This document shows positions 249 to 10,620 of a DNA stretch of 10,733 bases, piece by piece. Origin of the DNA: Candidatus Adiutrix sp. (GTDB lineage: Bacteria; Desulfobacterota; Desulfarculia; Adiutricales; Adiutricaceae); contig JAISRV010000175.1 in NCBI GenBank assembly GCA_031273445.1, positions 1-10,733 of the forward strand, read 5' to 3'. The notes beneath the pieces were generated by a model. That model worked only from the letters and a program-made list of their open reading frames with translations, ran no database searches and was not told where the DNA came from. The translations under genes and the position numbers were made by a program. The stretch's first letter is position 1. Every line of letters begins with the position of its first letter.

Positions 249-283
249 GCCGACCAGGGCGGCCACAAGGGCCGCCCCTACAA
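249..283. repeat. Small palindromic element GGGCGGCC-acaag-GGCCGCCC with CCCCTAC flank
   Basis: The hairpin has perfect 8-bp arms (257-264 and 270-277) around a 5-nt loop, followed by CCCTAC. Read on the minus strand, the CCCTAC side gives GTAGGG, which contains the TAG stop of the last head gene (278-280). The same CCCCTAC motif occurs near 8200, 8272 and 9747. It looks like a different small mobile palindrome from the CCAGGGC family, with the two often placed side by side. Confidence 0.6.
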
Positions 284-700
284 AGGCGGGCCCTCGGGCG
301 CTTTGACCTGCAACGTGGCCCTGACGGCCACCCAGCCGGCGGCTGAAAAGTCTTCCGTCAGGGCCGTAATCAGCCACCAGGTTTCATCCTGCCGCTGGAG
401 CAGGTCGCCGCTCCGGGCCAGGGGCCGCACTAGGCCGGCGGGCTTATCGGCCTGATTTGCGGCCAGGAGATAAAAGCGGCGGTTGGTTTCGTTCTGCCCC
501 ACCCGGGACGCAACCGCGTCCGAGTGGGCCAGAGCGTCGTCGCCTTCAGACTGTATCTGCGCCTTGACCGCCTCGCCCGCCGCGTAGACGGCCTTTATTT
601 CGCCTCTGACGTTCATCTGGCCGGTCGCCCGGTACAGCGTGACCGTTTCGTTGGGGTGAACGGCCGAGATGAGGCCGTTGGCTATGGCGTGCAAATTCAT
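278..700 (-). CDS. Head-closure/neck-like phage protein (head-tail joining)
   Basis: This 140-residue protein has the pattern of a small neck protein found after the DUF4054 and gp10-like genes in many tailed phages: an MNLHAIANGLISAVHPN start, a central NRRFYLLA strand near residues 73-80, a glycine-aspartate turn (SGDLL, 97-101) and a WWLITAL...WVAVRATLQ ending (108-131). The inferred role is closing the filled head or bridging head and tail. Relatives, as I remember them, stop at about the VxVTLQ position; here nine extra residues (VKAPEGPPL) and the TAG stop come from the adjoining palindromic repeat. The start overlaps the upstream gene's stop by 4 nt (ATGA), typical of translational coupling. 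The specific neck role is inferred from pattern and position. Confidence 0.7.
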   Translation of the reverse strand: MNLHAIANGLISAVHPNETVTLYRATGQMNVRGEIKAVYAAGEAVKAQIQSEGDDALAHSDAVASRVGQNETNRRFYLLAANQADKPAGLVRPLARSGDLLQRQDETWWLITALTEDFSAAGWVAVRATLQVKAPEGPPL

Positions 701-1164: not shown

Positions 1165-1668
1165 TCATCGCTCACTTTCCCGTTTTAAATGGCGGGCAAC
1201 CCCGGCCGACCAAAAACCGCCCGCCGATTCAGCCTCTGCGGGCATTGGGTCCAGGGCGAAGCCCTGGTAATACCGCCCCCCGGTCATATAGCGCCGCGCG
1301 GCTTGCCAGAAGGTTTGACCGCAGGGCGTCTGCTGGTGCCAGTCGGCCGCTTTGCCGGTCATGGCCGGCACGGCGAAGCTGACGGAGACGGAGCCTTCCG
1401 AGGCCGAGACCGCCGGGCCGGCGGCCCCGCCGGCCTGGGCCGCCCTGAGGGCCAGGGTGGTCAAGTGACAGACCAGCAGATACAGAAGCGTCTTGCGGGC
1501 GTTTTGTCCCCGCTCCGGGTCATAGGGCACGGGCGAGGCCTCGCTGTTGTCCAGAAGGAGCGTGGCCGCGTCGAAGGCATAAGTCAGTTGTTCGTCGCTG
1601 ACCGCTTCTGGCGTGAAGTGGGGGAACCTGGCCCGGAATTCCGCCGGATCGAAAACAACTATGGCCAT
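1165..1668 (-). CDS. DUF4054 head-tail connector with repeat-encoded C-terminal tail
   Basis: Residues 1-134 have the DUF4054 (gp6-like connector) pattern: FDPAEFRARFPHFTPEAVSDEQL near the start, an alanine-rich helical middle (LLYLLVCHLTTLALRAAQAG), SVSVSFAVPAMTG, and the typical TFWQAARRYMTGGRYY ending. Such proteins form the ring joining portal to the head-closure protein. The ribosome site AGGAAGG lies 7 nt before ATG 1668, which supports this start. After GGRYY, where I recall relatives ending, 33 more residues follow, beginning QGFALDPMPAEAESAGGFW; this part is the plain translation of a palindromic repeat copy (1199-1267), then RHLKRESER. The tail is in frame and uninterrupted, so the repeat is either tolerated or used. 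Confidence 0.8.
   Translation of the reverse strand: MAIVVFDPAEFRARFPHFTPEAVSDEQLTYAFDAATLLLDNSEASPVPYDPERGQNARKTLLYLLVCHLTTLALRAAQAGGAAGPAVSASEGSVSVSFAVPAMTGKAADWHQQTPCGQTFWQAARRYMTGGRYYQGFALDPMPAEAESAGGFWSAGVARHLKRESER
1199..1267 (-). repeat. CCAGGGC-family element inside the DUF4054 gene's 3' end
   Basis: On the minus strand it begins with the palindrome CCAGGGC-TTC-GCCCTGG (1251-1267), then GACCC, a degenerate middle, and GGCGGGCGGTTTTTGGTCGGCCGGGG. The last part matches the corresponding piece of the copies at 3414-3501 and 8240-8316. The central GGATGCTCCCGCATCC hairpin is nearly erased. The palindrome end faces the conserved gene core. Confidence 0.75.
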
Positions 1669-1729
1669 GTATCAACCTTCCTAACCTAAAGCAAGGCCAC
1701 CGTAGGCCAAACATCCCTGTTTAGCTTCC

Positions 1730-2188
1730 TTATTCGGCGGCCGCCGCCGGCGTGGTTTTCATGTCTTCCGGCGCGACCGGCTCCAGGCCGTGGCGCAATT
1801 CAGATTTTTCCTCGGCTTCGTCCAGGGCGTAGTCTTTGCGCTCGGCGGCGAAGATGAGGCCGTTCTTAAAGAGGGCCAAGGCGCCGTAAGTTTCCTTGAT
1901 GTATTCCCAATCGTCCGCCGCGACCGGCGTCAGGCCGAAAGCGCCGATGGGCAGCTTGCCCTTTTCCAGGCCTTTCAGGTGGGCGGCGTTGCCGGCGATT
2001 TCCACCCGCCGCCCGTCCGGCATGACGAATTTCAGGCCCGAGGCCCGGTTGAGGGCCACAAACACCAGGGCTCCGCCCTGGACCTCGGGGCAAGCGCCCC
2101 ATGCTCCCGCATCCGATCCGTTGTGGCTTGTTTGGAGGTTGGTTGTTGGTAAGCCGGGGCCTCGTTTGTTTCGCTTTGATTTGCTCAT
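1730..2188 (-). CDS. Conserved phage head-module protein of unknown function with repeat-encoded N-terminus
   Basis: A 152-residue protein between the major capsid and DUF4054 genes. Residues 42-152 carry the conserved part as I remember this small family: FVMPDGRRVEIAGN, a glycine-lysine segment (GKLPIGAFGLTPV), ADDWEYIKETYGALALFKNGLIFAAE and SELRHGLEPVAPED. The function is unknown to me; the position suggests a head or connector role. Residues 10-41 (from GPGLPTTNL to VQGGAL) translate a palindromic repeat copy. The start is well supported by AAGGGAAG 4 nt before ATG 2188, so the repeat is translated. The first residues, MSKSKRNK, resemble the portal's MKRNKPKK leader. A second repeat fragment lies just upstream of the ribosome site. 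Confidence 0.72.
   Translation of the reverse strand: MSKSKRNKRGPGLPTTNLQTSHNGSDAGAWGACPEVQGGALVFVALNRASGLKFVMPDGRRVEIAGNAAHLKGLEKGKLPIGAFGLTPVAADDWEYIKETYGALALFKNGLIFAAERKDYALDEAEEKSELRHGLEPVAPEDMKTTPAAAAE
2065..2161 (-). repeat. CCAGGGC-family element inside the 5' end of the unknown head gene
   Basis: Read on the minus strand it runs GGCCCCGGCTTACCA..., a degenerate spacer, CGGATCGGATGCGGGAGCAT, an extra small palindrome GGGGCGCTTGCCCC, then GGTCCAGGGCGGAGCCCTGG (2065-2083). This is the same order as the long copies at 10389-10497 and 10507-10620, including the CCCCGGCTTACCA part. The whole copy is open in the gene's frame. Confidence 0.75.
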
Positions 2189-2199
2189 GAACTTCCCTT

Positions 2200-2237
2200 C
2201 CCAGGGCGAAGCCCTGGCCTCACGCGGGAATGACGGC
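2200..2237. repeat. Short palindrome fragment upstream of the unknown head gene
   Basis: CCAGGGC-GAA-GCCCTGG (2201-2217) is followed by CTCACGCGGGAATGACGGC, which resembles the GCCCCGCAATGACGGC flank of the copy near 212-227. It sits immediately before the ribosome binding site of the 2188 start. Confidence 0.65.
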
Positions 2238-2269
2238 TAAGACGATAGGCATGAAATCAACTCTTAGCC

Positions 2270-2305
2270 CCTTCAATTTGAAAACCGCGCTTTTCAAATT
2301 GAAGG
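2270..2305. terminator. Perfect 15-bp hairpin downstream of the major capsid gene
   Basis: CCTTCAATTTGAAAA and its exact reverse complement flank a CCGCGC loop. It lies about 45 nt after the capsid stop, next to a second hairpin. It has no clear U-tract after the stem, so it may act as an RNA-stability or processing hairpin rather than a classical terminator. Confidence 0.5.
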
Positions 2306-2317
2306 CTCAGTTTAAAT

Positions 2318-2345
2318 CCCGAAAAAAGCGCCCGCTTTTTTCGGG
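2318..2345. terminator. Perfect hairpin immediately after the capsid stop codon
   Basis: CCCGAAAAAAGCG and its exact complement CGCTTTTTTCGGG are separated by two bases, so the tip will open slightly. Its A-run and T-run make it terminator-like on either strand. On the minus strand it begins two bases after the capsid stop, a place where phages often attenuate transcription to make more capsid than connector protein. Confidence 0.55.
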
Positions 2346-2347
2346 GC

Positions 2348-3370
2348 TCACATTCCTGCCATCTGGGCGAAAGCGAAAGGCTGGAGGACGATGCCGCCGT
2401 AGGTGGTGGAGACCCACTTCTGCTTGAGCGAGGACATTTCCGGAACCAGGCGGCCGGCCCTGATCTTCTCGCCGAAGCCCAGTTCGCCGGTGGGGTTGCC
2501 GGCCACATTGGGGGCGATGAGAAACATGGTCTCGCCGGCGCTCAGGCTGGCCAGTTCCGGCAAAGTCACGATCTTCAGGCTGGAGAAATACTTGTTCAGC
2601 ATGTCGATGACCGAGACGTTGAAATCAGTGGCCGCGCCCAGGTGAACGGACAGGCCCGGCGAGAGGGCCAGGGTGAGCCCGGCCGAATTGTCGATCAGCC
2701 CGGCCGACTGGCTGACCAATTCGGCGAACAGGGCCAGCACGTCGTTATAAATCTGGACGGTGGTTTTGTCGGCCCACAGGGGCGACGCGCCTCCGCCCAC
2801 AGGGGCGGGCGTGATGGCCGCCGGCAGGTTCGGATCATTGAGCAGGCCGTAAATCTCCCTGTCCTGGATGCCCGTGAGATAAAACTTGTTGGCGTCGATG
2901 TCCAGGACGGCGGCGGCGGCCCGCTGTTTGGAGGAAGCCAGATCCAGCTTGGCCGCGCTGGTCATGGCCGTCTCCAGATCGCCGTAGCTGATGGAGGTTT
3001 CAAAAAGATACTGCTCGCGAGTCAGCCAGTTGGAGTTGACGTCGCTGGCCCCGTTGTTGGCGAAATCGCTGTAAGGCTGGGAACGCCCGACCACTTCGTC
3101 GGTGCGCCACTTGGCGTAAGGGGTCGTCCAGTCGCCTTTCTTGGTTTCGGAAAAAAGCTCCCGGGCCCGGCGCGGGGCGGTCTGAATCTCGATGACGCGC
3201 GGGTCGATGTAGGCCAGCAGCTCCACCGGCACGGTCACGTTGGGCATGGTCAGCAGGGCGGCGTCAGCGGCCAGGCGGGCGACGCCGGCCGGGTCATACC
3301 AGGCGCGGGCGCCGGGGAAGTTGAAGCCGTAAGCCCTGGCCTGGTCAAAGGTTAGTTTCATGATGGTCAT
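2348..3370 (-). CDS. Major capsid protein, DUF2184 type
   Basis: A 340-residue protein with the DUF2184 capsid pattern. It begins MKLTFDQARAYGFNFPGARAW and continues with VPVELLAYIDPRVIEIQTAPRRARELF, WTTPYAKWRTDEVVGRSQPYSDFANNGASDVN and YLFETSISYGDLE. Next come a KQRAAAAVLDIDANKFYLTG helix, a long shell domain (VSVIDMLNKYFSSLKIVTLPELA) and the typical end WVSTTYGGIVLQPFAFAQMAGM. It would build the icosahedral shell in an HK97-like fold. The start at 3370 is chosen because GGAG lies 8 nt upstream; ATG three codons later is less well spaced. It follows the cement gene after about 120 nt of repeat and ends beside two strong hairpins. No repeat tail is fused to this protein, unlike most of its neighbours. 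Confidence 0.85.
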   Translation of the reverse strand: MTIMKLTFDQARAYGFNFPGARAWYDPAGVARLAADAALLTMPNVTVPVELLAYIDPRVIEIQTAPRRARELFSETKKGDWTTPYAKWRTDEVVGRSQPYSDFANNGASDVNSNWLTREQYLFETSISYGDLETAMTSAAKLDLASSKQRAAAAVLDIDANKFYLTGIQDREIYGLLNDPNLPAAITPAPVGGGASPLWADKTTVQIYNDVLALFAELVSQSAGLIDNSAGLTLALSPGLSVHLGAATDFNVSVIDMLNKYFSSLKIVTLPELASLSAGETMFLIAPNVAGNPTGELGFGEKIRAGRLVPEMSSLKQKWVSTTYGGIVLQPFAFAQMAGM

Positions 3371-3413
3371 TCTTATTACTCCATATTCTTTCTTTTCAAG
3401 CCAAGTCGCGATG

Positions 3414-3501
3414 TCCGCCCCGGCCGACCAAAACCCGCCCGCCGACCCCGACCCTGCGGATCGGATGCGAGAGCATCCGGGGTCTAGGGCTTATGCCCTG
3501 G
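3414..3501. repeat. CCAGGGC-family element between capsid and cement genes
   Basis: This is a near-complete copy. In plus-strand order it has CCGCCCCGGCCGACCAAAAC, CCGCCCGCCGACCCC, a hairpin GGATCGGATGCGAGAGCATCC, then GGGTCTAGGGC-TTAT-GCCCTGG. The loop of the last palindrome contains the TAA stop codon (3491-3493) of the cement protein. The rest fills the space before the capsid ribosome site. Confidence 0.8.
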
Positions 3502-3967
3502 TGATTATGATGGGTTCGCCGATGTCGCCGGGGGTGGTCACGACCCAGGGCGTTTCCACGGCCCCGGTGACGGTGGCCCCGGCCGCGCCGGTCTTGATGG
3601 TTCCGTCGGCGCTGACGGCGAAAACCTTCTGCCCGACCGTCGCGGCGGTGGCCGAAACGACCCAGTAGGCGCCCTGGGTGGCCACGGTCAGGGTGGAACC
3701 CTCCGGGGCGAGGTCGGAACCCTGGGCGGTCACGTCCATGTTTATGTAAACAATGTTGCGTTCGACCAGCCCGATGGGCTCTGCGTCTTCCTCGCCGGCG
3801 TTTGTGGCCTGGGCCACCGGATCGGTTCCGGGCCAGACGAAAGTGCCGATAGCCACGTCGCCCTCGGCCAAGGGGGTGTTGGGCCAGTAGTTATAAGAGT
3901 TCTGGCCGGCCTTCATGCCCGGCAAGCCGGCGGCTATATCGCCGTAAACCTGTTTCTGAGGAATCAT
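3491..3967 (-). CDS. Structural cement / decoration protein (gp24-like)
   Basis: A 158-residue, mostly beta-strand protein lying directly upstream of the capsid gene. It opens YGDIAAGLPGMKAGQNSYNY, then has GDVAIGTFVWPGTDP (36-50), EPIGLVERN (63-71), and a repeated strand-turn pattern (GAYWVVSATAATVGQKVFAVSADGTIKTG...GAVETPWVVTTPGDIGEPIIITR). This matches my memory of small capsid-cementing proteins that bind the shell exterior of DUF2184-type heads. The start at 3967 has GGAGA about 10 nt upstream. The last residue and the TAA stop fall inside a palindromic repeat, in its loop. The family call rests on pattern and position. Confidence 0.68.
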   Translation of the reverse strand: MIPQKQVYGDIAAGLPGMKAGQNSYNYWPNTPLAEGDVAIGTFVWPGTDPVAQATNAGEEDAEPIGLVERNIVYINMDVTAQGSDLAPEGSTLTVATQGAYWVVSATAATVGQKVFAVSADGTIKTGAAGATVTGAVETPWVVTTPGDIGEPIIITRA

Positions 3968-4051
3968 TTTTTTTGTCTCTCCGTAGTATCTATGCTCCCT
4001 ACCGGCGTCTTGGTCGGCCGGGGCCGTCAGTCGTGCCGACGTCGGGCTGTT

Positions 4052-4714
4052 TTAATGCGAAATCTTGATGTTGGCCAGGCCTTTAAAAGGGCCGTCCATG
4101 TCGAGCGGGGCCTGGGCCGGCTGGGCGGCCGGACTGGCGGCTTTCAGGGCCATGTCCACCATGTCGGCCAGGGCGCTTTCGTCGCTGGTGCGTGGGGTCA
4201 GGCCGCGCGACTTGAGGGCGTAGGCGTAGATGCCGCCGGCCCTGTCGAAGGCCAGAGGGTCGATTTCGCCCACCAGGGGCCGCACCTTGCGGGCCGCTTC
4301 GGAGAGCCGCCCGAACCTGGCCAGGGCCTTTTTGACGGCCCGGTCTTCAGCCGCCTTCACGTCTAGGGCCAGACGGCGCAACTGCTGATCCATGGCTTTT
4401 ATTTCGCCGTCAGCCGGCTTGTCTTCGTCCTCGGCCGGCTCGTCCTTGTCTTCGTCCGCGGCCGGGGCGGGCCGCAGGGCCTCAACCAGGGCCATGATTT
4501 TGGCGGCCAACTCTTTGTCCTCAAGCGAGCCGATCAGGGCGGCCAACTCTTCGGCCGGGTTATCGGTTACGGCCGGGGGAGCGGGGTCGTCTTTGGGCTC
4601 TTCTTTGAGCTCAACTTTCAACTCCGGCTCTTCGTCGTTGGCCAGGCCCTTCTTGTCCGTATCCAGGCCTTCGGCCTCGGCGATAAGTTTTTTTATTTTG
4701 TCGATTAATCCCAT
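4052..4714 (-). CDS. Possible nested scaffold protein from an internal start
   Basis: Inside the DUF2213 gene, codon 191 is an ATG with AAAGGA about 9 nt upstream, placed exactly between the protease domain and the charged helical region. Starting here gives a separate 220-residue protein MGLIDKIKKLIAEAEG... with the acidic, alanine- and lysine-rich make-up of capsid scaffolds. Lambda (C/Nu3) and other phages make their scaffold in this nested way. This is an inference from the ribosome site and domain boundary; the codon could simply be an internal methionine. Confidence 0.4.
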   Translation of the reverse strand: MGLIDKIKKLIAEAEGLDTDKKGLANDEEPELKVELKEEPKDDPAPPAVTDNPAEELAALIGSLEDKELAAKIMALVEALRPAPAADEDKDEPAEDEDKPADGEIKAMDQQLRRLALDVKAAEDRAVKKALARFGRLSEAARKVRPLVGEIDPLAFDRAGGIYAYALKSRGLTPRTSDESALADMVDMALKAASPAAQPAQAPLDMDGPFKGLANIKISH

Positions 4715-5284
4715 GTCGGTAGTCCTTTCAGTCTGGGGGGTTATTTGTTGATCGGAGACGGCTACGTCCGGGCCGGCCCGGCCTTCTTCGACCAGGGCCA
4801 CGTGATTGCCGCGAATGTCGGTCATGATGAAGTCGTAGGCTTCGCCCTGGAAAACGCCGGGGCTCATGACCGGGGTGAACTGGTAGGCGGCCGAGAGCTG
4901 GCGGCGGCGGCCGCTTTCCACGGCCTCGATGGCCCGGGCGTCGGTGATGACCAGGGCGTTGTCCAGATAGGGCGCGCTCCAGGCGGCCTCGGCGCTCAAA
5001 CTGCCGACGCGGTGTTCCTTCTGGGGGGCTTCGGCGCTTTCGGGGTAATGGCCCAAAAGGAGCGGCAGACCGTTGAAGGTGTCCGCGCCCTTGGCCAGCT
5101 CCTCCCCGGCCCGGTAGCCGTAATAAATCCTGTCCGGCTCAAGCCCCAATTCCTCCCAGCCGGGGATTTCGCGGCCGTAATAGGGGTTGACCGTCTCTTT
5201 CGAGATATGGCTCGCGGCCACATGCAGAAAGCCGTTGTCGTCTTTGCGCCGGCGGCTGCCGACGTCGAAGATTAAGGAATTCAT
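4052..5284 (-). CDS. DUF2213 prohead protease fused to a scaffold-like domain
   Basis: Residues 1-175 have the DUF2213 pattern: RRKDDNGFLHVAASHISKETVNPYYG, DRIYYGYRAGEEL, LPLLLGHYPE with His79, RRQLSAAYQFTP with Ser131, and RGNHVALVEEGRAGPDV with His161. His79 and Ser131 fit a herpesvirus/HK97-type protease arrangement, but I assign them only as candidates. Residues 191-410 are a highly charged, helix-rich region (acidic EDEDKPADGE stretches, then AARKVRPLVGEIDPLAFD) like a scaffold. ATG 5284 is chosen over ATG 5299 and TTG 5323, which extend the frame, because GGGAA lies about 9 nt upstream and MNSLIFDVGS fits the family start. The portal-to-protease gap holds an opposite-strand cassette. 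Confidence 0.8.
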   Translation of the reverse strand: MNSLIFDVGSRRRKDDNGFLHVAASHISKETVNPYYGREIPGWEELGLEPDRIYYGYRAGEELAKGADTFNGLPLLLGHYPESAEAPQKEHRVGSLSAEAAWSAPYLDNALVITDARAIEAVESGRRRQLSAAYQFTPVMSPGVFQGEAYDFIMTDIRGNHVALVEEGRAGPDVAVSDQQITPQTERTTDMGLIDKIKKLIAEAEGLDTDKKGLANDEEPELKVELKEEPKDDPAPPAVTDNPAEELAALIGSLEDKELAAKIMALVEALRPAPAADEDKDEPAEDEDKPADGEIKAMDQQLRRLALDVKAAEDRAVKKALARFGRLSEAARKVRPLVGEIDPLAFDRAGGIYAYALKSRGLTPRTSDESALADMVDMALKAASPAAQPAQAPLDMDGPFKGLANIKISH

Positions 5285-5285
5285 G

Positions 5286-5314
5286 TTGACGTTTCCCATT
5301 AAATGGCGTATACT
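5286..5314 (+). promoter_or_regulatory. Candidate sigma-70 promoter P1 of the plus-strand island
   Basis: TTGACG (5286-5291) and TATACT (5309-5314) are separated by exactly 17 bp, ten of twelve consensus bases. A transcript would begin near 5321 and run towards a strong terminator hairpin at 5386-5455. The -35 lies one base upstream of the DUF2213 ATG on the other strand, so the two genes' signals abut. Confidence 0.55.
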
Positions 5315-5320
5315 TATTTT

Positions 5321-5455
5321 CAAGATAAGGTTCTTGTTCTGTCCGTGGGTCTGCGAAACCTGAGGGGAACAGAGGTCTTTCTTTTAGCGGGAGATGAAGG
5401 CAGATGTCCGTGGATATTGACTACGGCGCCAGAGCCTTCGTCTCCCGCTGTTTTT
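5321..5455 (+). ncRNA. Putative small RNA or attenuated leader, about 135 nt
   Basis: No convincing protein frame fills 5321-5495. A promoter at 5286-5314 and an intrinsic-terminator shape at 5386-5455 delimit a possible short transcript. Within it, TTGTTC and GAACAG can pair near the 5' end, and the nonamer TGTCCGTGG occurs twice (5340-5348 and 5405-5413), the second copy in the terminator loop. It could be a free small RNA of the island, or a leader whose terminator limits expression of the downstream antitoxin-toxin genes. I do not recognise it as a known RNA family. Confidence 0.4.
5386..5455 (+). terminator. 16-bp hairpin followed by GTTTTT
   Basis: AGCGGGAGATGAAGGC (5386-5401) pairs along its whole length with GCCTTCGTCTCCCGCT (5434-5449) with one G-U pair, around a 32-nt loop, then G and five T residues. 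The T-run is on the plus-strand 3' side only, so it would stop plus-strand RNA. The loop is unusually long for an intrinsic terminator. Confidence 0.6.
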
Positions 5456-5495
5456 GACTCAAAACGGCGAAATCCGTTCCATCTGTCTAAATCCG

Positions 5496-5504
5496 TGCTA
5501 TAAT
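5496..5504 (+). promoter_or_regulatory. Extended -10 promoter P2 of the antitoxin-toxin operon
   Basis: TGCTATAAT is a perfect extended -10 box; no good -35 is seen at the usual distance. It lies about 30 nt before the antitoxin ATG, so a transcript beginning near 5511 has a short leader that includes the TGGAGG ribosome site. Because the box overlaps an ATG at 5503, that ATG cannot be the start for RNA made from this promoter. Confidence 0.6.
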
Positions 5505-5535
5505 GGACGTCAATGGATTCTACTGGAGGCGCCAT

Positions 5536-6024
5536 ATGCCCAGCGTTTTTGACGTCGCAGATTACTTTATCGCCAAAAACGACCCCAGAGAGGGCGACAG
5601 GATGACCAATCTTCGTTTGCAGAAGTTGGTTTACTACGCTCAGGGCTTCTGTTTGGCGCTTTTGAACCGACCACTGTTTAATGAGCCGATAGAAGCCTGG
5701 CGGCATGGCCCGGTTTGCGAAGCGCTGTATCATAAATATAAAAGTTTCGGCAGCGAACCTCTGGACACGATTTACAAAACCAAACGCGAGGCGGCGCAGG
5801 CCCTGAAAAGCGCTCTCAAGCCGTTCGCTAAAGATGAAATAGAGGTCTTGGATGAGGTGTTTGAGGTTTATGGTCAATACACCGCGTCCCGATTGCGTCA
5901 ACTGTCTCATGACACGCCCCCCTGGCAACAGGCTTTCCCTGACGGGGTCATTTCCAAAGCCTCCATGAAAGAGTTTTTCGCCACACAGATAAAAACCTCC
6001 GACGGAACGTCCGCCGCGGCTTGA
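5536..6024 (+). CDS. DUF4065 / SocA / Panacea-domain antitoxin
   Basis: A 162-residue protein with the pattern of the DUF4065 (GepA/SocA, now called Panacea) domain: SVFDVADYFI at the start, MTNLRLQKLVYYAQGF (23-38), PLFNEPIEAWRHGPVCEALYHKYKSFG (46-72), and a C-terminal helix with EIEVLDEVFEVYGQYTASRLRQLSH and a TPPW motif. The family is known mainly as an antitoxin or adaptor that neutralises a variable toxin, in some cases by delivering it to a protease. ATG 5536 is chosen because TGGAGG sits 7 nt upstream and the family begins here. It is less GC-rich than the head genes, lies on the opposite strand and has its own promoter, as expected for a moron. The gene after it is its likely toxin partner. 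Confidence 0.85.
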   Translation: MPSVFDVADYFIAKNDPREGDRMTNLRLQKLVYYAQGFCLALLNRPLFNEPIEAWRHGPVCEALYHKYKSFGSEPLDTIYKTKREAAQALKSALKPFAKDEIEVLDEVFEVYGQYTASRLRQLSHDTPPWQQAFPDGVISKASMKEFFATQIKTSDGTSAAA

Positions 6025-6026
6025 TC

Positions 6027-6443
6027 ATGGCCGGCAAAATTAATCGCCCCAAGGGAGCGCCGGCGGCCAAAAGAGTGCTTGAGCCGGGGCCGGAATCCCC
6101 TCCGGGCTCCAATTTGACTCTTCATCCTAAAATATCCCTTGCTTTCGTCCAGCCTGGGCGCTATGCCCTTAATAAATGCACAAAGGACGAAAAGGCGGCT
6201 TTGGTCGATAAGCTTCATAATCTATGCGCCTTGACCTGGAAGCAAATATACAATGCTGGTCGGCATGGCCTGGGTTTTGAAAAGGTGGAGGTCAAAAAGG
6301 CCGCGCCGCCGGAAATATTCAAAGACCATAACCAGGTCGCTTTTCGTTTTTGCGGGAAAAAACCCATGGTCGGATTCATTGATCATGACACCTTTTATAT
6401 CGTCTGGTTCGACCATGATTTCACCCTCTACCGGCATGACTAG
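6027..6443 (+). CDS. Putative toxin partner of the DUF4065 antitoxin
   Basis: A 138-residue protein whose ATG lies two bases after the antitoxin's TGA; a TTG at 6021 would overlap it by 4 nt. No strong ribosome site is visible, so translation may be coupled. The N-terminal 25 residues are basic and proline/alanine-rich; the rest (from LTLHPKISLAFVQPGRYALN) appears compact, with a helix DEKAALVDKLHNLCALTWKQIYN (55-77) and a C-terminal strand pattern FRFCGKKPMVGFIDHDTFYIVWFDHDFTLYRHD. This ending recalls small RelE-like nuclease toxins, where a last strand carries catalytic residues, but that is only a resemblance. Candidate active residues are the conserved-looking H and D residues near the end. 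The toxin role is inferred from gene order. Confidence 0.6.
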   Translation: MAGKINRPKGAPAAKRVLEPGPESPPGSNLTLHPKISLAFVQPGRYALNKCTKDEKAALVDKLHNLCALTWKQIYNAGRHGLGFEKVEVKKAAPPEIFKDHNQVAFRFCGKKPMVGFIDHDTFYIVWFDHDFTLYRHD

Positions 6444-6494
6444 CGGACTGTGCGGTTAGTTCCGTCCCTCAAAGCAGATCGGCGGTTTTTTTAT

Positions 6495-6523
6495 TTGACT
6501 TTTCCCTGTCAGTTTTCTATAAT
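6495..6523 (+). promoter_or_regulatory. Near-consensus promoter P3 pointing antisense into the portal gene
   Basis: TTGACT (6495-6500), a 17-bp spacer and TATAAT (6518-6523) match eleven of twelve sigma-70 consensus bases. It follows a T-run (6486-6492) that may mark the end of the toxin transcript. RNA would begin near 6530 and run antisense to the 3' end of the portal gene; no real plus-strand gene follows within reach. Confidence 0.55.
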
Positions 6524-6537
6524 TAAATAACGCTTTT

Positions 6538-8082
6538 CTATCGGCTCTCGTTATCTGAATCCGCATCGCCGCTTAACCCAAGATCAACAAAAAGACCGTC
6601 TTCATCCTTTATCAGGGCTTTACGCAGGTCTTCGCCGTCCACCGCCCCTCGATCCGCATATGCCGTTCTGGCGTTGGCTCGGGCCAGTTGCACATTCGCC
6701 TCGGCCGCCTCATCCGCCTCCGACAGCGGGCGAAATTTGAAGCCCAGGCCAGGGTCAATTCGGCCGAAACGGTTCAGTTGCAGGATATCCAGAGCCTTAT
6801 CCAGGCCCGCCCGGAACAGCTTCTCCTGCCGGCTTTCGATATGATCATAATAGTTGCGCAAATCGCTTTCTCCTGTGGCGTTGAAGCCGGCCGGGGAGAT
6901 GCCCAGAAGCTTCACCGCCGGAGTGCGGTTGACGGCGGCCACAAATTCCAGCGACTGCCGCGTGATGTCGGTGGCCCCGCTCAAGGGCGTCTCCAGCTTG
7001 ATCAGGTCTTCGGTCTCTTTATCGATGACCATCAGCCCGTCGTTGTTGCGCGTCTGGACGAAATAGCGCGACCGCGCGTCCACCTCCGCGCCGCCGCCCC
7101 CGCTCAAAACCTGGCTCATGTCGATTTTGAGGGCCGTCAGGGAAAATTTTGTCAAAAGCCGTTGCGTGGCCAAGCGGCATTCCTGGAAATGTTGAATATA
7201 GTCATATAAAATCTGGGCCTGGGGAATGCCGAAAAAATTATAGGCCGGCTTCAACAGCAGCGGCGGCTCATTGTCGGCGACGTGGATGAAGCGCGAGGCG
7301 TGAACCTCCCGCGACAATATCCACCAGTTGCGCGGCTTGAAATAATCCGGGGCCAGCGGGTCGAAACAGTTGTAGAGGCCGGGGAAACAGTTGACCGGCT
7401 CGACCACCCGGAAGCCTTTCAAAGCGCCGGGCCGCATCTCGGCGGAAACGCCGTCGAGGTTGAGCGGCTCGCGCAGGGCCTCGCCCACGGCCCCGGCGTC
7501 GATGAAGATCAGACAGCCGCCGAACCAGCCGGTCAGCGAGGCCGCCCGGTGAAAGACTTCCCGTAAGCGGAACTTCTTCAAATCGCCTTTTAGGGCGGTC
7601 AGGGCTTCCGCTTCCGTTTCATCAATATGCGTGTCCCCGGCCCGGTTCAGCTCGATCCAGGCGCGGGTCAGGTCGTCGGCCACGGTCTCCACGCAGGCGG
7701 AGACAAGCCCGTCCTGGGGCAGGGCCGACAGGGCGGCATAACCCATGAACTGGCCGCCGCAGCCCGGCCCATACCCCAGCCCCATCCGCGAGGCCTGTTG
7801 CATAAGGGAGTAGGCCCCCGATGTCTCCAGAGCCGCGTCGGCGGCCAGGCGTATTTCTTCGCTCGCGCCTAAGGTGCGGGCCGGGCCGAATTTGGCCCGC
7901 AGATCGTCCAGGGTGGGCATGGGCGCCAGGGCTCCGCCCTGGACCCAAGGATGCTCCGCGTCCGATCCGTAGTTGCGGGATCGGCGGTTAGGGGCGGAGG
8001 CGGTTGCCCTGGCGATTGCCCTGTCGGCCGAGGCATGGCTTTGGGCGCCGCCGCGTGGTTTTTTTGGTTTGTTTCTTTTCAT
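6538..8082 (-). CDS. Portal protein, DUF1073 type, with repeat-encoded N-terminal stretch
   Basis: A 514-residue protein with the DUF1073 portal pattern: LVSACVETVADDLTRAWIELNR, a TGWFGGCLIFIDAG strand, FRVVEPVNCFPGLYNCFDPLAPDYFKPRNWWI, HASRFIHVADNEP, ILYDYIQHFQECRLATQRLLTKFSLTALKIDM and FNATGESDLRNYYDHIESRQEKLF. It forms the twelve-fold ring through which DNA is packaged. ATG 8082 is chosen over the upstream ATG 8124 because AAGGAG lies 4 nt before it. Residues of the early region (NYGSDAEHPWVQGGALAP) are the translation of a palindromic repeat copy at 7926-7975, preceded by a basic MKRNKPKKPRGG leader. The conserved fold appears to begin after it, around LDDLRAKFG. Confidence 0.85.
   Translation of the reverse strand: MKRNKPKKPRGGAQSHASADRAIARATASAPNRRSRNYGSDAEHPWVQGGALAPMPTLDDLRAKFGPARTLGASEEIRLAADAALETSGAYSLMQQASRMGLGYGPGCGGQFMGYAALSALPQDGLVSACVETVADDLTRAWIELNRAGDTHIDETEAEALTALKGDLKKFRLREVFHRAASLTGWFGGCLIFIDAGAVGEALREPLNLDGVSAEMRPGALKGFRVVEPVNCFPGLYNCFDPLAPDYFKPRNWWILSREVHASRFIHVADNEPPLLLKPAYNFFGIPQAQILYDYIQHFQECRLATQRLLTKFSLTALKIDMSQVLSGGGGAEVDARSRYFVQTRNNDGLMVIDKETEDLIKLETPLSGATDITRQSLEFVAAVNRTPAVKLLGISPAGFNATGESDLRNYYDHIESRQEKLFRAGLDKALDILQLNRFGRIDPGLGFKFRPLSEADEAAEANVQLARANARTAYADRGAVDGEDLRKALIKDEDGLFVDLGLSGDADSDNESR
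7926..7975 (-). repeat. CCAGGGC-family element inside the 5' end of the portal gene
   Basis: On the minus strand: TACGGATCGGACGCGGAGCATCC, then TTGGGTCCAGGGCGGAGCCCTGG. Both palindromes are present, but the long GC-rich arm seen in intergenic copies is missing. It keeps the portal frame open and encodes YGSDAEHPWVQGGAL. Confidence 0.8.
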
Positions 8083-8094
8083 GCGGCTCCTTTT

Positions 8095-8316
8095 CAGGGC
8101 GGGCAGGCCTGCCCCGGCGAACATTGCGGGGCGCGGAGCCCCGCAATGACAGCCAGGGCCGACCAGGAGGGCGGGCCAACCCCGCCCCTACAGGAGACAA
8201 ACGCTCGTTTCCAACCCGAGGGCGGCCTGTCGGCCCCGGCCGACCAAAACCCCGCCCGCCGACCCCGCCCCTACGGATCGGATGCGGAGCATCCGGGGTC
8301 CAGGGCTATGCCCTGG
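8095..8316. repeat. Composite repeat block between large terminase and portal
   Basis: The region first holds a perfect 10-bp hairpin ATTGCGGGGC-GCGGA-GCCCCGCAAT (8123-8147). It then has two CCCCGCCCCTAC-like pieces, the CCCCGGCCGACCAAAACC arm (about 8234-8255), the GGATCGGATGCGGAGCATCC hairpin (8276-8295), and CCAGGGC-TAT-GCCCTGG (8300-8316). The last palindrome carries the TAG stop of the large terminase in its loop. Apart from the portal ribosome site, the ~220-bp gap is repeat. Confidence 0.8.
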
Positions 8317-9682
8317 GGCTGATGCGCATGGGCGGCCGTTCCCCGTTCAGCAGGTTGAAGGCCCCGGCGCAGGCGTCGGCGTGGTCGTCGTGGGCCGCCT
8401 CCGGGAAGCCTTCCAACTGGTCGAAAAACTCTTCGTTCCAGTCGCCTTTGATGAAATAGACGTTCCCGGCCTCGCACTGAGCGGAAAAGGGGCCGAACCT
8501 GGCGATTTTGTCACCGCTTTCCGGGCGGGTCTTGACTCTATATCCGGCCAGCTTTCTGACGAAATTTTGAGCCTGGGACTTGCCGGCCTGGCCGGGGTCC
8601 TGCGGCAGGCCGACGATGACCTTCCTTCCGTCCTGCCCGGCCATATTCGCAACGGCTTGCTCGACATGAAAGGGGCTCTTTCTGAGGCTCAGGCCATGCA
8701 GGAGGAAAAAGCGGCCTTCTTTGTCCCGGCCCATTTTTACGGAGACCGTAAAGTCAGGATCGTTCGCGTCGGTCTTCTCCGTGGCCGCCAGGTCCCAATA
8801 GCGGACTGTTTGCAGGTCGGCCGGGGCGGCCGGGGCCGCCGTTATCCACTCGCGCCGGAACAAAAGCCCGCCCGTCGGCCTGATTTTCCAGTTGCCGTAG
8901 AGGAGACGTTCCCTTTCCACCACGCTCAGGGCCTTCAAATTGGCCAGGTAGCCGGGGTCGGCCGCCATCAGTATTTTATTGTCGAACAGCGACGAGGCGA
9001 TGAAAGTCACGCTCTTGGGCAAACTTTCGTCGCCGTAGTCGCGCTTAAGATCGTCCGGACTGTCGGCCCAGATGATCTTGTCATTGAGGCGAATCATCCA
9101 GCGGATTTTGCCGGAACGCTCCGGGATGGCCAACCCCGTGTCCGGATCAATCCACCAGCTTATAAAGCCGGCCACCCAGGAATCCGCGTCGGGGTTGCAG
9201 GTGGCCCGGACATAAGGCTTGACGCCGCAAAGGCTTCTGTTGCGCGAAAGCATGTAGAAAAACTGGTTTTGCGAAAAGTGGGTCAGCTCGTCAAACTCGA
9301 TGAGGGGGATTTGCGCGCCCTGGTAGTTGTGAACCGTCTTTTCATCCTCAAGGTGTCCGAAAGTTATTTTCGTGTTTTGAGGAAAAACCCATGAAAGCGG
9401 CTGTTTGCGCGAGGCCGCGCCAAAGGCCGGGTAGAGGCGGTCGGCCTCGTCCCACAGCCCGCCTTCATTGGTGACCTGAATCAGGTTCTTTCTGAAAATG
9501 ACCGACCCGAAACCTTTTTTATGGATATGGCGCAACGGCTCCGCCAAAATGGCCCAAGTCTTCCCCCCTCCGGCCGCGCCGCCGTAAATGGCGATGTCGG
9601 CCGGCGTGGCCATAAAAGCCTCCTGCGGCCCCGTTTGCGGTTTTATCTCATTTTTTGTTTCATCGCGCATTTTCCCGTTCAT
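8306..9682 (-). CDS. Terminase large subunit
   Basis: This 458-residue packaging motor ATPase and nuclease cuts concatemeric DNA and pumps it into the prohead through the portal. Walker A is GGAAGGGKT (34-42), Walker B IPLIEFDE (125-132), and a coupling motif YVRATCNPD lies at 157-165. The nuclease half shows RYWDLA with Asp297, VGLPQDPGQAGK with Asp362, and HDDHADACAGA with Asp432-Asp436, as in RNase H-like terminases. ATG 9682 is used; its ribosome site is weak. ATG at codon 24 has a good GGAGG site, but that start would cut into the family's usual GPQEAF segment. The final residues PRA and the TAG stop are supplied by a palindromic repeat. Confidence 0.93.
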   Translation of the reverse strand: MNGKMRDETKNEIKPQTGPQEAFMATPADIAIYGGAAGGGKTWAILAEPLRHIHKKGFGSVIFRKNLIQVTNEGGLWDEADRLYPAFGAASRKQPLSWVFPQNTKITFGHLEDEKTVHNYQGAQIPLIEFDELTHFSQNQFFYMLSRNRSLCGVKPYVRATCNPDADSWVAGFISWWIDPDTGLAIPERSGKIRWMIRLNDKIIWADSPDDLKRDYGDESLPKSVTFIASSLFDNKILMAADPGYLANLKALSVVERERLLYGNWKIRPTGGLLFRREWITAAPAAPADLQTVRYWDLAATEKTDANDPDFTVSVKMGRDKEGRFFLLHGLSLRKSPFHVEQAVANMAGQDGRKVIVGLPQDPGQAGKSQAQNFVRKLAGYRVKTRPESGDKIARFGPFSAQCEAGNVYFIKGDWNEEFFDQLEGFPEAAHDDHADACAGAFNLLNGERPPMRISPRA

Positions 9683-9702
9683 TTCTCATTTACCTTTTAA
9701 GA

Positions 9703-9793
9703 GGCCGCCGGCCCCGGCCGACCAGGAAGCGCCGGCCGACCCGGCCCCTACGGATAGGATGCGGAGCATCCTGGGTCCAGGGCTTTGCCCTGG
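9703..9793. repeat. CCAGGGC-family element between small and large terminase genes
   Basis: Plus-strand order: GGCCCCGGCCGACCAGGAAG, CGCCGGCCGACCCGGCCCCTAC, the hairpin GGATAGGATGCGGAGCATCC, then GGGTCCAGGGC-TTT-GCCCTGG (9777-9793), followed by two further CCCTGG units. It encodes the last ~14 residues and the TAG stop of the small terminase. Confidence 0.8.
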
Positions 9794-10233
9794 CCCTGGC
9801 CCTGGCGGCCGTTGTCGGGCAGTCGGTAGACAAGAAGCTTGGCCGGGCGCTCCGGGGCTTCCGTCCGTTGGCTTTCCTTCCAGCCTAAGCGGGTTTTGGC
9901 CCAGAAGACCAGGGCGGCCAGGTCGCCGCCGACGGCTTTTTCAAAAAGCGCCTGGCCTATGGCCAAAGCGGCTTCGGCCTGGCCCCGGTCCAGATCGGCC
10001 TGATAGAGCCGCCGCAATTCCGGAAGCGTCAAGCGCGCCCGGGCGGCGATGAGTTCCGCCGCGACTCCGAAACGACTCATGGCCTCCGCTTCGGCGGCCA
10101 GTTCCTCGTCGCGACGGGCGGGAGGGTTTTCGGCGGGAGGCCCTTCAACAGGAGGGCCTTCAACAGGAGGGCTTTCAACGGGAAGATTTTTAAGGGAAGG
10201 GCTTTCAAGGTAAGAATTTTCAAGGGGGCGCAT
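9748..10233 (-). CDS. Small terminase-like protein with pentapeptide-repeat N-terminus and repeat-encoded tail
   Basis: Residues 55-120 match a small terminase-like DNA-binding family: an HTH-like FGVAAELIAARARLTLPELRRLYQADLDRG, then AEAALAIGQALFEKAVGGDLAALVFWAKTRLGWKE. It would recognise the packaging site and load the large subunit encoded next. Residues 4-38 are seven degenerate pentapeptides (LENSY, LESPS, LKNLP, VESPP, VEGPP, VEGPP, AENPP) from a 15-bp tandem repeat. The C-terminus GQGKALDPGCSASYP and TAG stop are a translated palindromic repeat. ATG 10233 has AGGAG 8 nt upstream. Assignment as small terminase rests on the core pattern and on position before the large subunit. Confidence 0.72.
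   Translation of the reverse strand: MRPLENSYLESPSLKNLPVESPPVEGPPVEGPPAENPPARRDEELAAEAEAMSRFGVAAELIAARARLTLPELRRLYQADLDRGQAEAALAIGQALFEKAVGGDLAALVFWAKTRLGWKESQRTEAPERPAKLLVYRLPDNGRQGQGQGKALDPGCSASYP
10120..10224 (-). repeat. Seven-unit 15-bp in-frame tandem repeat
   Basis: Seven consecutive units of exactly 15 bp, for example AGGAGGGCCTTCAAC and AGGAGGGCTTTCAAC on the plus strand, form the first part of the small terminase gene. Neighbouring central units differ by one or two bases while outer units have drifted, as expected for replication-slippage growth and decay. Confidence 0.85.
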
Positions 10234-10388: not shown

Positions 10389-10620
10389 CCAGGGCTCCGC
10401 CCTGGACCCCGGATGCTCCCGCATCCGATCCGCCGGGTCGGAGTAGACGGGCGGTTCCTGGTAAGCCGGGGCGAAACTTTCGGACAATAAAGAGGAAAAA
10501 GCGCCGCCAGGGCTCCGCCCTGGACCCCGGATGCTCCCGCATCCGATCCGCCGGGTCGGAGTCGGCAGGCGGTTCCTGGTAAGCCGAGTCGAAACTTTCG
10601 GACAATAAAGAGGAAAAAGC
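10389..10620. repeat. Two tandem ~118-bp copies of the long form of the element
   Basis: The palindrome CCAGGGCTCCGCCCTGG starts at 10389 and again at 10507, and the bases that follow are nearly the same in both: GACCCCGGATGCTCCCGCATCC, GATCCGCCGGGTCGGAGT, GGCGGTTCCTGGTAAGCCG and GAAACTTTCGGACAATAAAG. This is the longest form of the family; shorter forms inside genes keep only the palindromes or one arm. A partial extra CCAGGGCTCCGC lies just before the first copy. With 10234-10388 it forms about 390 bp without a gene ahead of the small terminase. Confidence 0.85.

Follow-up and report, generated by a model that had tools for sequence, protein, structure and literature searches.

Why does one palindromic repeat lie across the ends of, and in frame inside, so many genes of a single phage head module? 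The window, by which we mean the whole 10,733-nt stretch analysed, is contig C109 of a draft genome (G000; 2.79 Mb, 439 contigs). It carries a minus-strand head module with genes for a small terminase-like protein, large terminase, portal, DUF2213-type protease, cement protein, major capsid protein, phrog_2085, DUF4054, a neck protein and phrog_1912. The analysis points, with a probability of roughly two in three, to a REP/BIME-like element of the host whose usual place is the 3′ end of genes, its first hairpin lying on the termination codon, and which has colonised this prophage head operon. What was observed directly is the family itself, the way it is oriented, its lock to stop codons and the protein ends that it encodes.

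Repeat copies in the phage head module

The repeat unit is ~82 nt long and consists of two hairpins, CCAGGGCnnnGCCCTGG and GGATGC..GCATCC, followed by a GC-rich arm; the first hairpin has the form CCAGGGC-nnn-GCCCTGG, with a three-base loop. An iterated profile search, seeded with a single repeat, found eight copies in the window and 69 across 43 loci of the window's own genome, and exact CCAGGGCNNNGCCCTGG palindromes number 8 in the window versus 42 in the whole assembly (reversed control, 0). After the second hairpin, GTAGGGGC follows in the window copies at 8274 and 9751 and CGTC in many copies of the same-genus genome G003; both are absent from the stop-side end. RNA folding of four window copies against shuffled sequences gave z values of -0.52, -1.95, -0.93 and -2.66, three of the copies not being clearly more stable. 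A comparison of the repeat with known RNA families gave six matches, with E values reaching 1 and scores well short of the gathering threshold in every case.

Six minus-strand head genes receive a stop codon, C-terminal residues or, in two genes, N-terminal linker residues from these copies, and the copies in head genes are open and in frame, which agrees with the claim of the sequence-only reading that at least six genes draw on the repeat in open frames. Two genes end inside it, as had been proposed. The large terminase gene (TerL; 8306-9682, minus strand) has its TAG at 8306 in the loop of the palindrome at 8300-8316 and encodes a protein ending in SPRA; the copy that spans this stop (8233-8315, plus strand) lies within a 223-nt spacer. 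The cement gene (3491-3967, minus strand) has its TAA at 3491 in the first hairpin of the copy at 3417-3500 (plus strand), and its product ends in IITRA.

Two further genes read through the repeat and acquire C-terminal tails. The small terminase-like gene (TerS; 9748-10233, minus strand) has a weak match to phrog_12540, a family of unknown function, and is so named because of its position before TerL and its similarity to the gene before TerL in locus L028 (41% identity). The loop of the copy at its 3′ end (9711-9792, plus strand) is AAA and free of stops, and the frame reads on to a TAG in CCGTAGGGGC; the resulting tail, QGQGQGKALDPGCSASYP, is 18 residues long and follows PDNGR, where the sister protein terminates as PDNGRN. 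In the DUF4054 gene (1165-1668, minus strand), the copy at 1200-1266 (plus strand) has the stop-free loop TTC and encodes a 33-residue tail in place of HPWG, the C-terminus of 61 of the 72 best homologues; the window protein keeps GGRYY and then enters the repeat. Comparison with homologues shows the extra residues in both proteins, as in the portal protein, to be repeat-derived. The lost DUF4054 end suggests that some phage insertions are damaging rather than functional.

Both N-terminal cases had likewise been described as in-frame copies; that in the portal gene is upheld, while that in phrog_2085 is less certain. The portal gene (Phage_portal_3; 6538-8082, minus strand) contains a partial copy at 7927-7989 (minus strand), read in frame as a linker (NYGSDAEHPWVQGGALAP). 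The codon-usage gene finder placed the start at 7920 instead, but we prefer 8082, which is preceded by AAGGAG and is supported by an N-terminus, MKRNKPKKPRGG, that equals MRRNKSKRPRGG of the 78%-identical sister protein at 9 of 12 residues. There are 65 residues before the GPA-T motif in the window protein versus 46 in the sister, and in a predicted structure that is weak overall (mean pLDDT 63.6) residues 10-52 fall below 50. The phrog_2085 gene (1730-2188, minus strand) starts either at 2188, with GGGAAGGGAAG in front, or at GTG 2065. A full copy at 2066-2160 (minus strand) forms an in-frame N-terminal linker if the start is 2188, and the repeat is likely to be part of this N-terminus; the reading is less certain because GTG 2065, just past the repeat, is the start in database entry P0241 (111 aa), as it is in the codon-usage gene finder. 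Just upstream of this start region lies an isolated palindrome, CCAGGGCGAAGCCCTGG (2201-2217).

The remaining window copies, at 10390-10472 and 10508-10588 (both minus strand), lie upstream of TerS. In the phrog_1912 head gene (278-700, minus strand) the TAG belongs to another kind of hairpin, a GTAGGGGC hairpin of the GTAGGGGCGG type, as the earlier reading had noted; GTAG-type hairpins were rejected as a general supplier of stops in this genome, since 1 of 19 GTAGGGGCG copies (42 loci) gives a predicted gene its stop. At both contig ends (8-180 and 10562-10733) stand diverged copies, partly 94-98% identical, of a further composite repeat that contains a GCCGCCGCAACTCGCCTGCGGC hairpin; the assembly may have broken there. 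Repeat-coded residues carry low predicted structure confidence, which fits tolerance of the insertions as well as it would fit a function.

A sister contig from the same genome, C27, encodes TerS, TerL, portal, a Mu F-like protein and protease (identities to the window of 41% for TerS, 73% for TerL, 78% for portal and 77% for protease), and a profile search found no repeat copies on it. TerL and portal overlap there by 4 nt, versus the 223-nt spacer of the window. Measured from first possible starts, the gaps in the human-gut phage MT836569 (L141) are 16 nt for terminase-portal (its terminase belonging to another Pfam family, with no match to that of the window), 17 nt for protease-cement, 37 nt for cement-capsid and 24 nt for capsid-phrog_2085, versus 223, 84, 120 and 159 nt in the window. 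In both relatives portal and protease are separated by a Mu F-like gene (in C27 at E 2.2e-5, below Pfam's cut-off), where the window has a two-gene cassette directed against the head operon, a SocA/Panacea-domain gene and its partner (phrog_8366; 5503-6443, plus strand). No window ORF matches the Mu F-like head gene; the prophage may therefore be defective, and the head genes cannot be called essential, as they had been. On another contig, C366, a toxin-antitoxin-like pair (L053:2812-3553; Gp49-like below cut-off, dnstrm_HI1420) opposes a repeat-bearing tail module.

A host-wide repeat with its first hairpin often at the stop codon

The repeat had been taken for an element directed at phage structural genes. 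The host-wide search that this called for, with positions tabulated against gene ends, rejects a phage-specific repeat: exact palindromes number 42 in the window's genome and 81 in G003 (reversed controls, 0), occur in six of the seven genomes searched in the genus, and lie at the stop codons of ordinary host genes as well. Among the 69 own-genome copies, at 43 loci nearly all of which were picked for holding repeat matches, 60 fall between genes, 8 overlap the 3′ end of a gene and 1 is internal to a gene, where random placement expects 10.7, 3.5 and 50.5; the two N-terminal window copies were scored as intergenic because the gene finder picked downstream starts. On the phage side, a double-hairpin pattern scan of viral contigs found none, blastn of one repeat copy against phages gave no match, and the palindrome is absent from the stretches of seven relative contigs (five viral, C27 and G006 C167) and from L141.

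Position relative to stop codons was followed in G003, in 33 stretches that together contain 47 of the 81 copies in that genome, namely the copies listed along a single contig. Gene ends were predicted with a codon-usage gene finder of our own and were compared with a deposited annotation at one site: CDS UQZ91392.1, on a Smac51 plasmid with coordinates matching G003 contig 3, stops immediately at the palindrome. Strain Smac51 is recorded as a pure culture from cockroach hindgut, and its plasmid matches the contig-3 copy. The taxonomic assignment depends on this plasmid match, since scanning genome contigs with TerL gave no confirmed relative. Using only palindromes with GGGT at one flank (in G003 43 of 47, in the window's genome 31) and merging tandem copies, we found that 29 of 37 independent G003 sites begin -12 to +6 nt from a predicted gene 3′ end. 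Null means were 0.27 for uniform and 0.41 for intergenic-only placement, with a maximum of 3 in 400 runs. Eight of the 37 sites lie outside this lock. Orientation is similarly biased, 38 of 43 palindromes facing the 3′ end of a gene, at a distance of up to 30 nt in 36 cases, and 5 facing a 5′ end. The lock is weaker in the window's own genome, with 8 of 27 sites in the same interval (null means 0.23 and 0.38); leaving out the window gives 7 of 22.

The 29 locked sites fall into three groups. Seventeen directly follow the stop, in 8 the loop of the first hairpin contains it, and 4 begin at +3 to +5, with CCA(G) or a partial copy between stop and palindrome; a further distance-0 copy, L094, is not orientable and enters a count of 18, outside the lock-test 17. 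The trinucleotide before the palindrome is TAG, TAA or TGA in all 17 distance-0 copies and a non-stop in 7 of the 8 loop-stop copies. Loops of TGA or TAA occur in 4 of 43 G003 copies and are in frame in 4 of 4, for each of which the chance would be one in three were the upstream frame random. Loops of ATA or GTA, which offer a stop in one frame, also turn up, without being required, in 8 of the 17 distance-0 copies. Loop-stop genes gain 2-3 residues and distance-0 genes none. Many G003 copies (L078-L110) run on into a conserved segment with ATCATCGTATTAAGAGCG, often with its inverted copy further downstream, and the full element in that genome therefore looks like a multi-hairpin mosaic.

The combination of TAR and palindrome occurs in four of the seven genomes of the genus (4 copies in G000, 2 in G002, 27 in G003 and 1 in G004). 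A class-wide lock was rejected, the combination being found in 0 of 53 other genomes searched, though 34 of these have the bare palindrome. Spread driven by a RAYT is unsupported by co-occurrence: across 21 genomes, and in counts only, Y1_Tnp matches do not track palindromes. In G001, a palindrome-free genome of the same genus, many of the listed Y1 transposase matches are short and have internal stops.

Native gene ends and competing explanations

Orthologues indicate where the genes ended without the repeat. Eight of 30 G003 gene rows were chosen; the Mrp orthologue L158, which is interrupted by a stop, was set aside, and two G003 self-matches (L111, L132) were left uncounted. The distance-0 genes for IF3, PrsA and the L103 protein end within one codon of 7, 4 and 4 orthologues, respectively (15 in total). 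FolD, GlgA, HIT and carbamoyltransferase end within 5 codons of 8, 10, 5 and 6 (29 in total), and Mrp is +4 to +9 relative to 3. The exact palindrome was found in none of the 48 orthologue loci compared. Since the ends of the eight tested genes agree with those of their orthologues, the repeat there occupies native gene ends or their immediate vicinity. Loop-stop copies follow non-stop trinucleotides, yet the tested ones lie near native ends, so the shared property is the end of translation and not the DNA letters; a single DNA target motif does not account for both the distance-0 and the loop-stop class.

How might such a position be kept? Purifying selection alone leaves the scarcity of scattered intergenic copies in G003 unexplained, and what is required is either a gene-end-sensing mechanism or selection that favours a hairpin at the stop; we prefer the latter, with a putative function at the RNA level. 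Selection would retain copies whose first hairpin holds translation termination at or inside it, with the native stop just before the hairpin serving frame 0 and the three-base loop supplying a stop in the other two. The hairpin could then act on mRNA at termination, by protecting the 3′ end, slowing translation or insulating the gene from the one that follows. A loop lacking a stop would let the frame continue into a protein tail of roughly 12-33 residues. Phage genes that once overlapped or nearly touched would have been pushed apart, and copies would also have landed in N-terminal linkers. Carried further, the repeat may be a movable translation-termination module, its hairpin held on the native stop, its loop serving as the stop in whichever non-zero frame needs one, and the protein ends of resident phages rewritten on the way; this extension we put forward tentatively.

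A possible but doubtful account is that the prophage is decaying and that repeats pile up in it under little counter-selection. The window contig is dense in repeats, holding 8 of the 42 exact genome copies in 10.7 kb where ~0.16 would be expected by length, although copies elsewhere in the genome may be undercounted because repeats break assemblies; C366, a second phage-like contig with tail genes, holds another 3 of the 42. Loss of HPWG from DUF4054 and the presence of the two-gene cassette where relatives have the Mu F-like gene point the same way. The family-matching head ORFs are nonetheless open over most of the profile, ribosome-binding-like motifs precede the portal and phrog_2085 starts, and decay leaves the lock in host genes unexplained.

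If instead a transposase or other enzyme inserted the repeat at TAR or stop-like trinucleotides, position would reflect target choice rather than function. Exact abutment to the stop is the expected product of such site-specific insertion, and 16 of the 17 distance-0 stops in G003 are TAG or TAA, yet TGA is the commonest stop of its predicted genes (95 of 229). We consider this unlikely, given the 7 of 8 loop-stop copies with no preceding stop trinucleotide, of which those tested still lie at or near native ends, and given that counts of Y1 transposases, the family searched, do not follow the repeats: G001 has 47 Y1 matches versus 0 palindromes, and G002 has 0 versus 22.

Kinship with the in-frame palindromic elements of Rickettsia, as suggested by the sequence-only reading, would mean that coding in frame is itself selected or tolerated and that the peptides are useful. 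The open copies in DUF4054, TerS, portal and phrog_2085 invite this view, as does a baseplate-hub gene on another phage-like contig that also ends in a repeat-coded tail. It is very improbable all the same: with 60 of 69 own-genome copies intergenic, internal in-frame copies are the exception, locked G003 genes gain few residues or none, and the coded segments are of low predicted confidence. It is hardly credible, finally, that GC-rich open frames make intergenic repeats look coding through an annotation artefact, for although the downstream starts chosen by the gene finder (7920 and 2065, the latter shared by the database entry) and a caution about N-terminal REPs in the accessible text of Di Nocera et al. 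(PMC3733652) speak for it, the portal N-terminus matches its sister and the stops of TerL, cement, TerS and DUF4054 are independent of start choice.

Relation to known repeats

In keeping with our preferred reading, a REP/BIME-like repeat of the host, the family displays features of a REP: it is a short palindromic repeat in many copies (42 in G000, 81 in G003) and mainly extragenic (60 of 69). Rickettsia palindromic elements are known for insertion within ORFs. The family here resembles them in being a palindromic repeat read in frame inside proteins, which in this family is the minority, and it lacks their usual in-frame location within coding sequence.

According to the accessible text of Di Nocera et al. 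(2013; PMC3733652), GTAG REPs often contribute a TAG stop with their termini, certain REPs lie within ORFs, and RPE-4 and RPE-6 are counted among the GTAG/CGTC-tagged REP families; REPs that stand beside stops, supply TAG or lie inside ORFs are thus already known. Like the REP/BIME elements described there, the window repeat is short, palindromic, of high copy number, mostly intergenic and near gene 3′ ends. Unlike them, as that text presents them, it abuts the stop exactly or carries it in the loop, its copies fill a prophage head operon, and no association of tag with RAYT was seen (counts only). In E. coli, too, hairpins lie close to stops: the accessible part of the RepRanger paper (PMC12306157) places 446 of 4,072 REPs within 15 nt of a stop codon, compared with 29 of 37 sampled G003 sites at -12 to +6 nt, and states, citing a primary study, that REPs at most 15 nt from the stop stall ribosomes and lower translation. 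The small mobile sequences RU-1/RU-2 (PMC2759123) and the Coxiella QMITEs (PMC5896051) overlap or become fused to the 3′ ends of genes and can extend the encoded proteins C-terminally, as does the window repeat; in the portions of those papers at hand they are described as individual fusions, whereas the family studied here follows a positional rule.

A literature search, with most subscription journals outside it, found no stop-locked family with loop-borne stops and no REPs in a phage head operon, and the precise lock and the loop stops therefore look new. Whether function or tolerance places REPs behind genes is still argued. A position fixed with nearly single-nucleotide precision with respect to the stop, in a genus of which one member is in culture, makes that question testable, and the head module of the window indicates that repeats of the host can alter the ends of phage structural proteins while reading frames stay unbroken.
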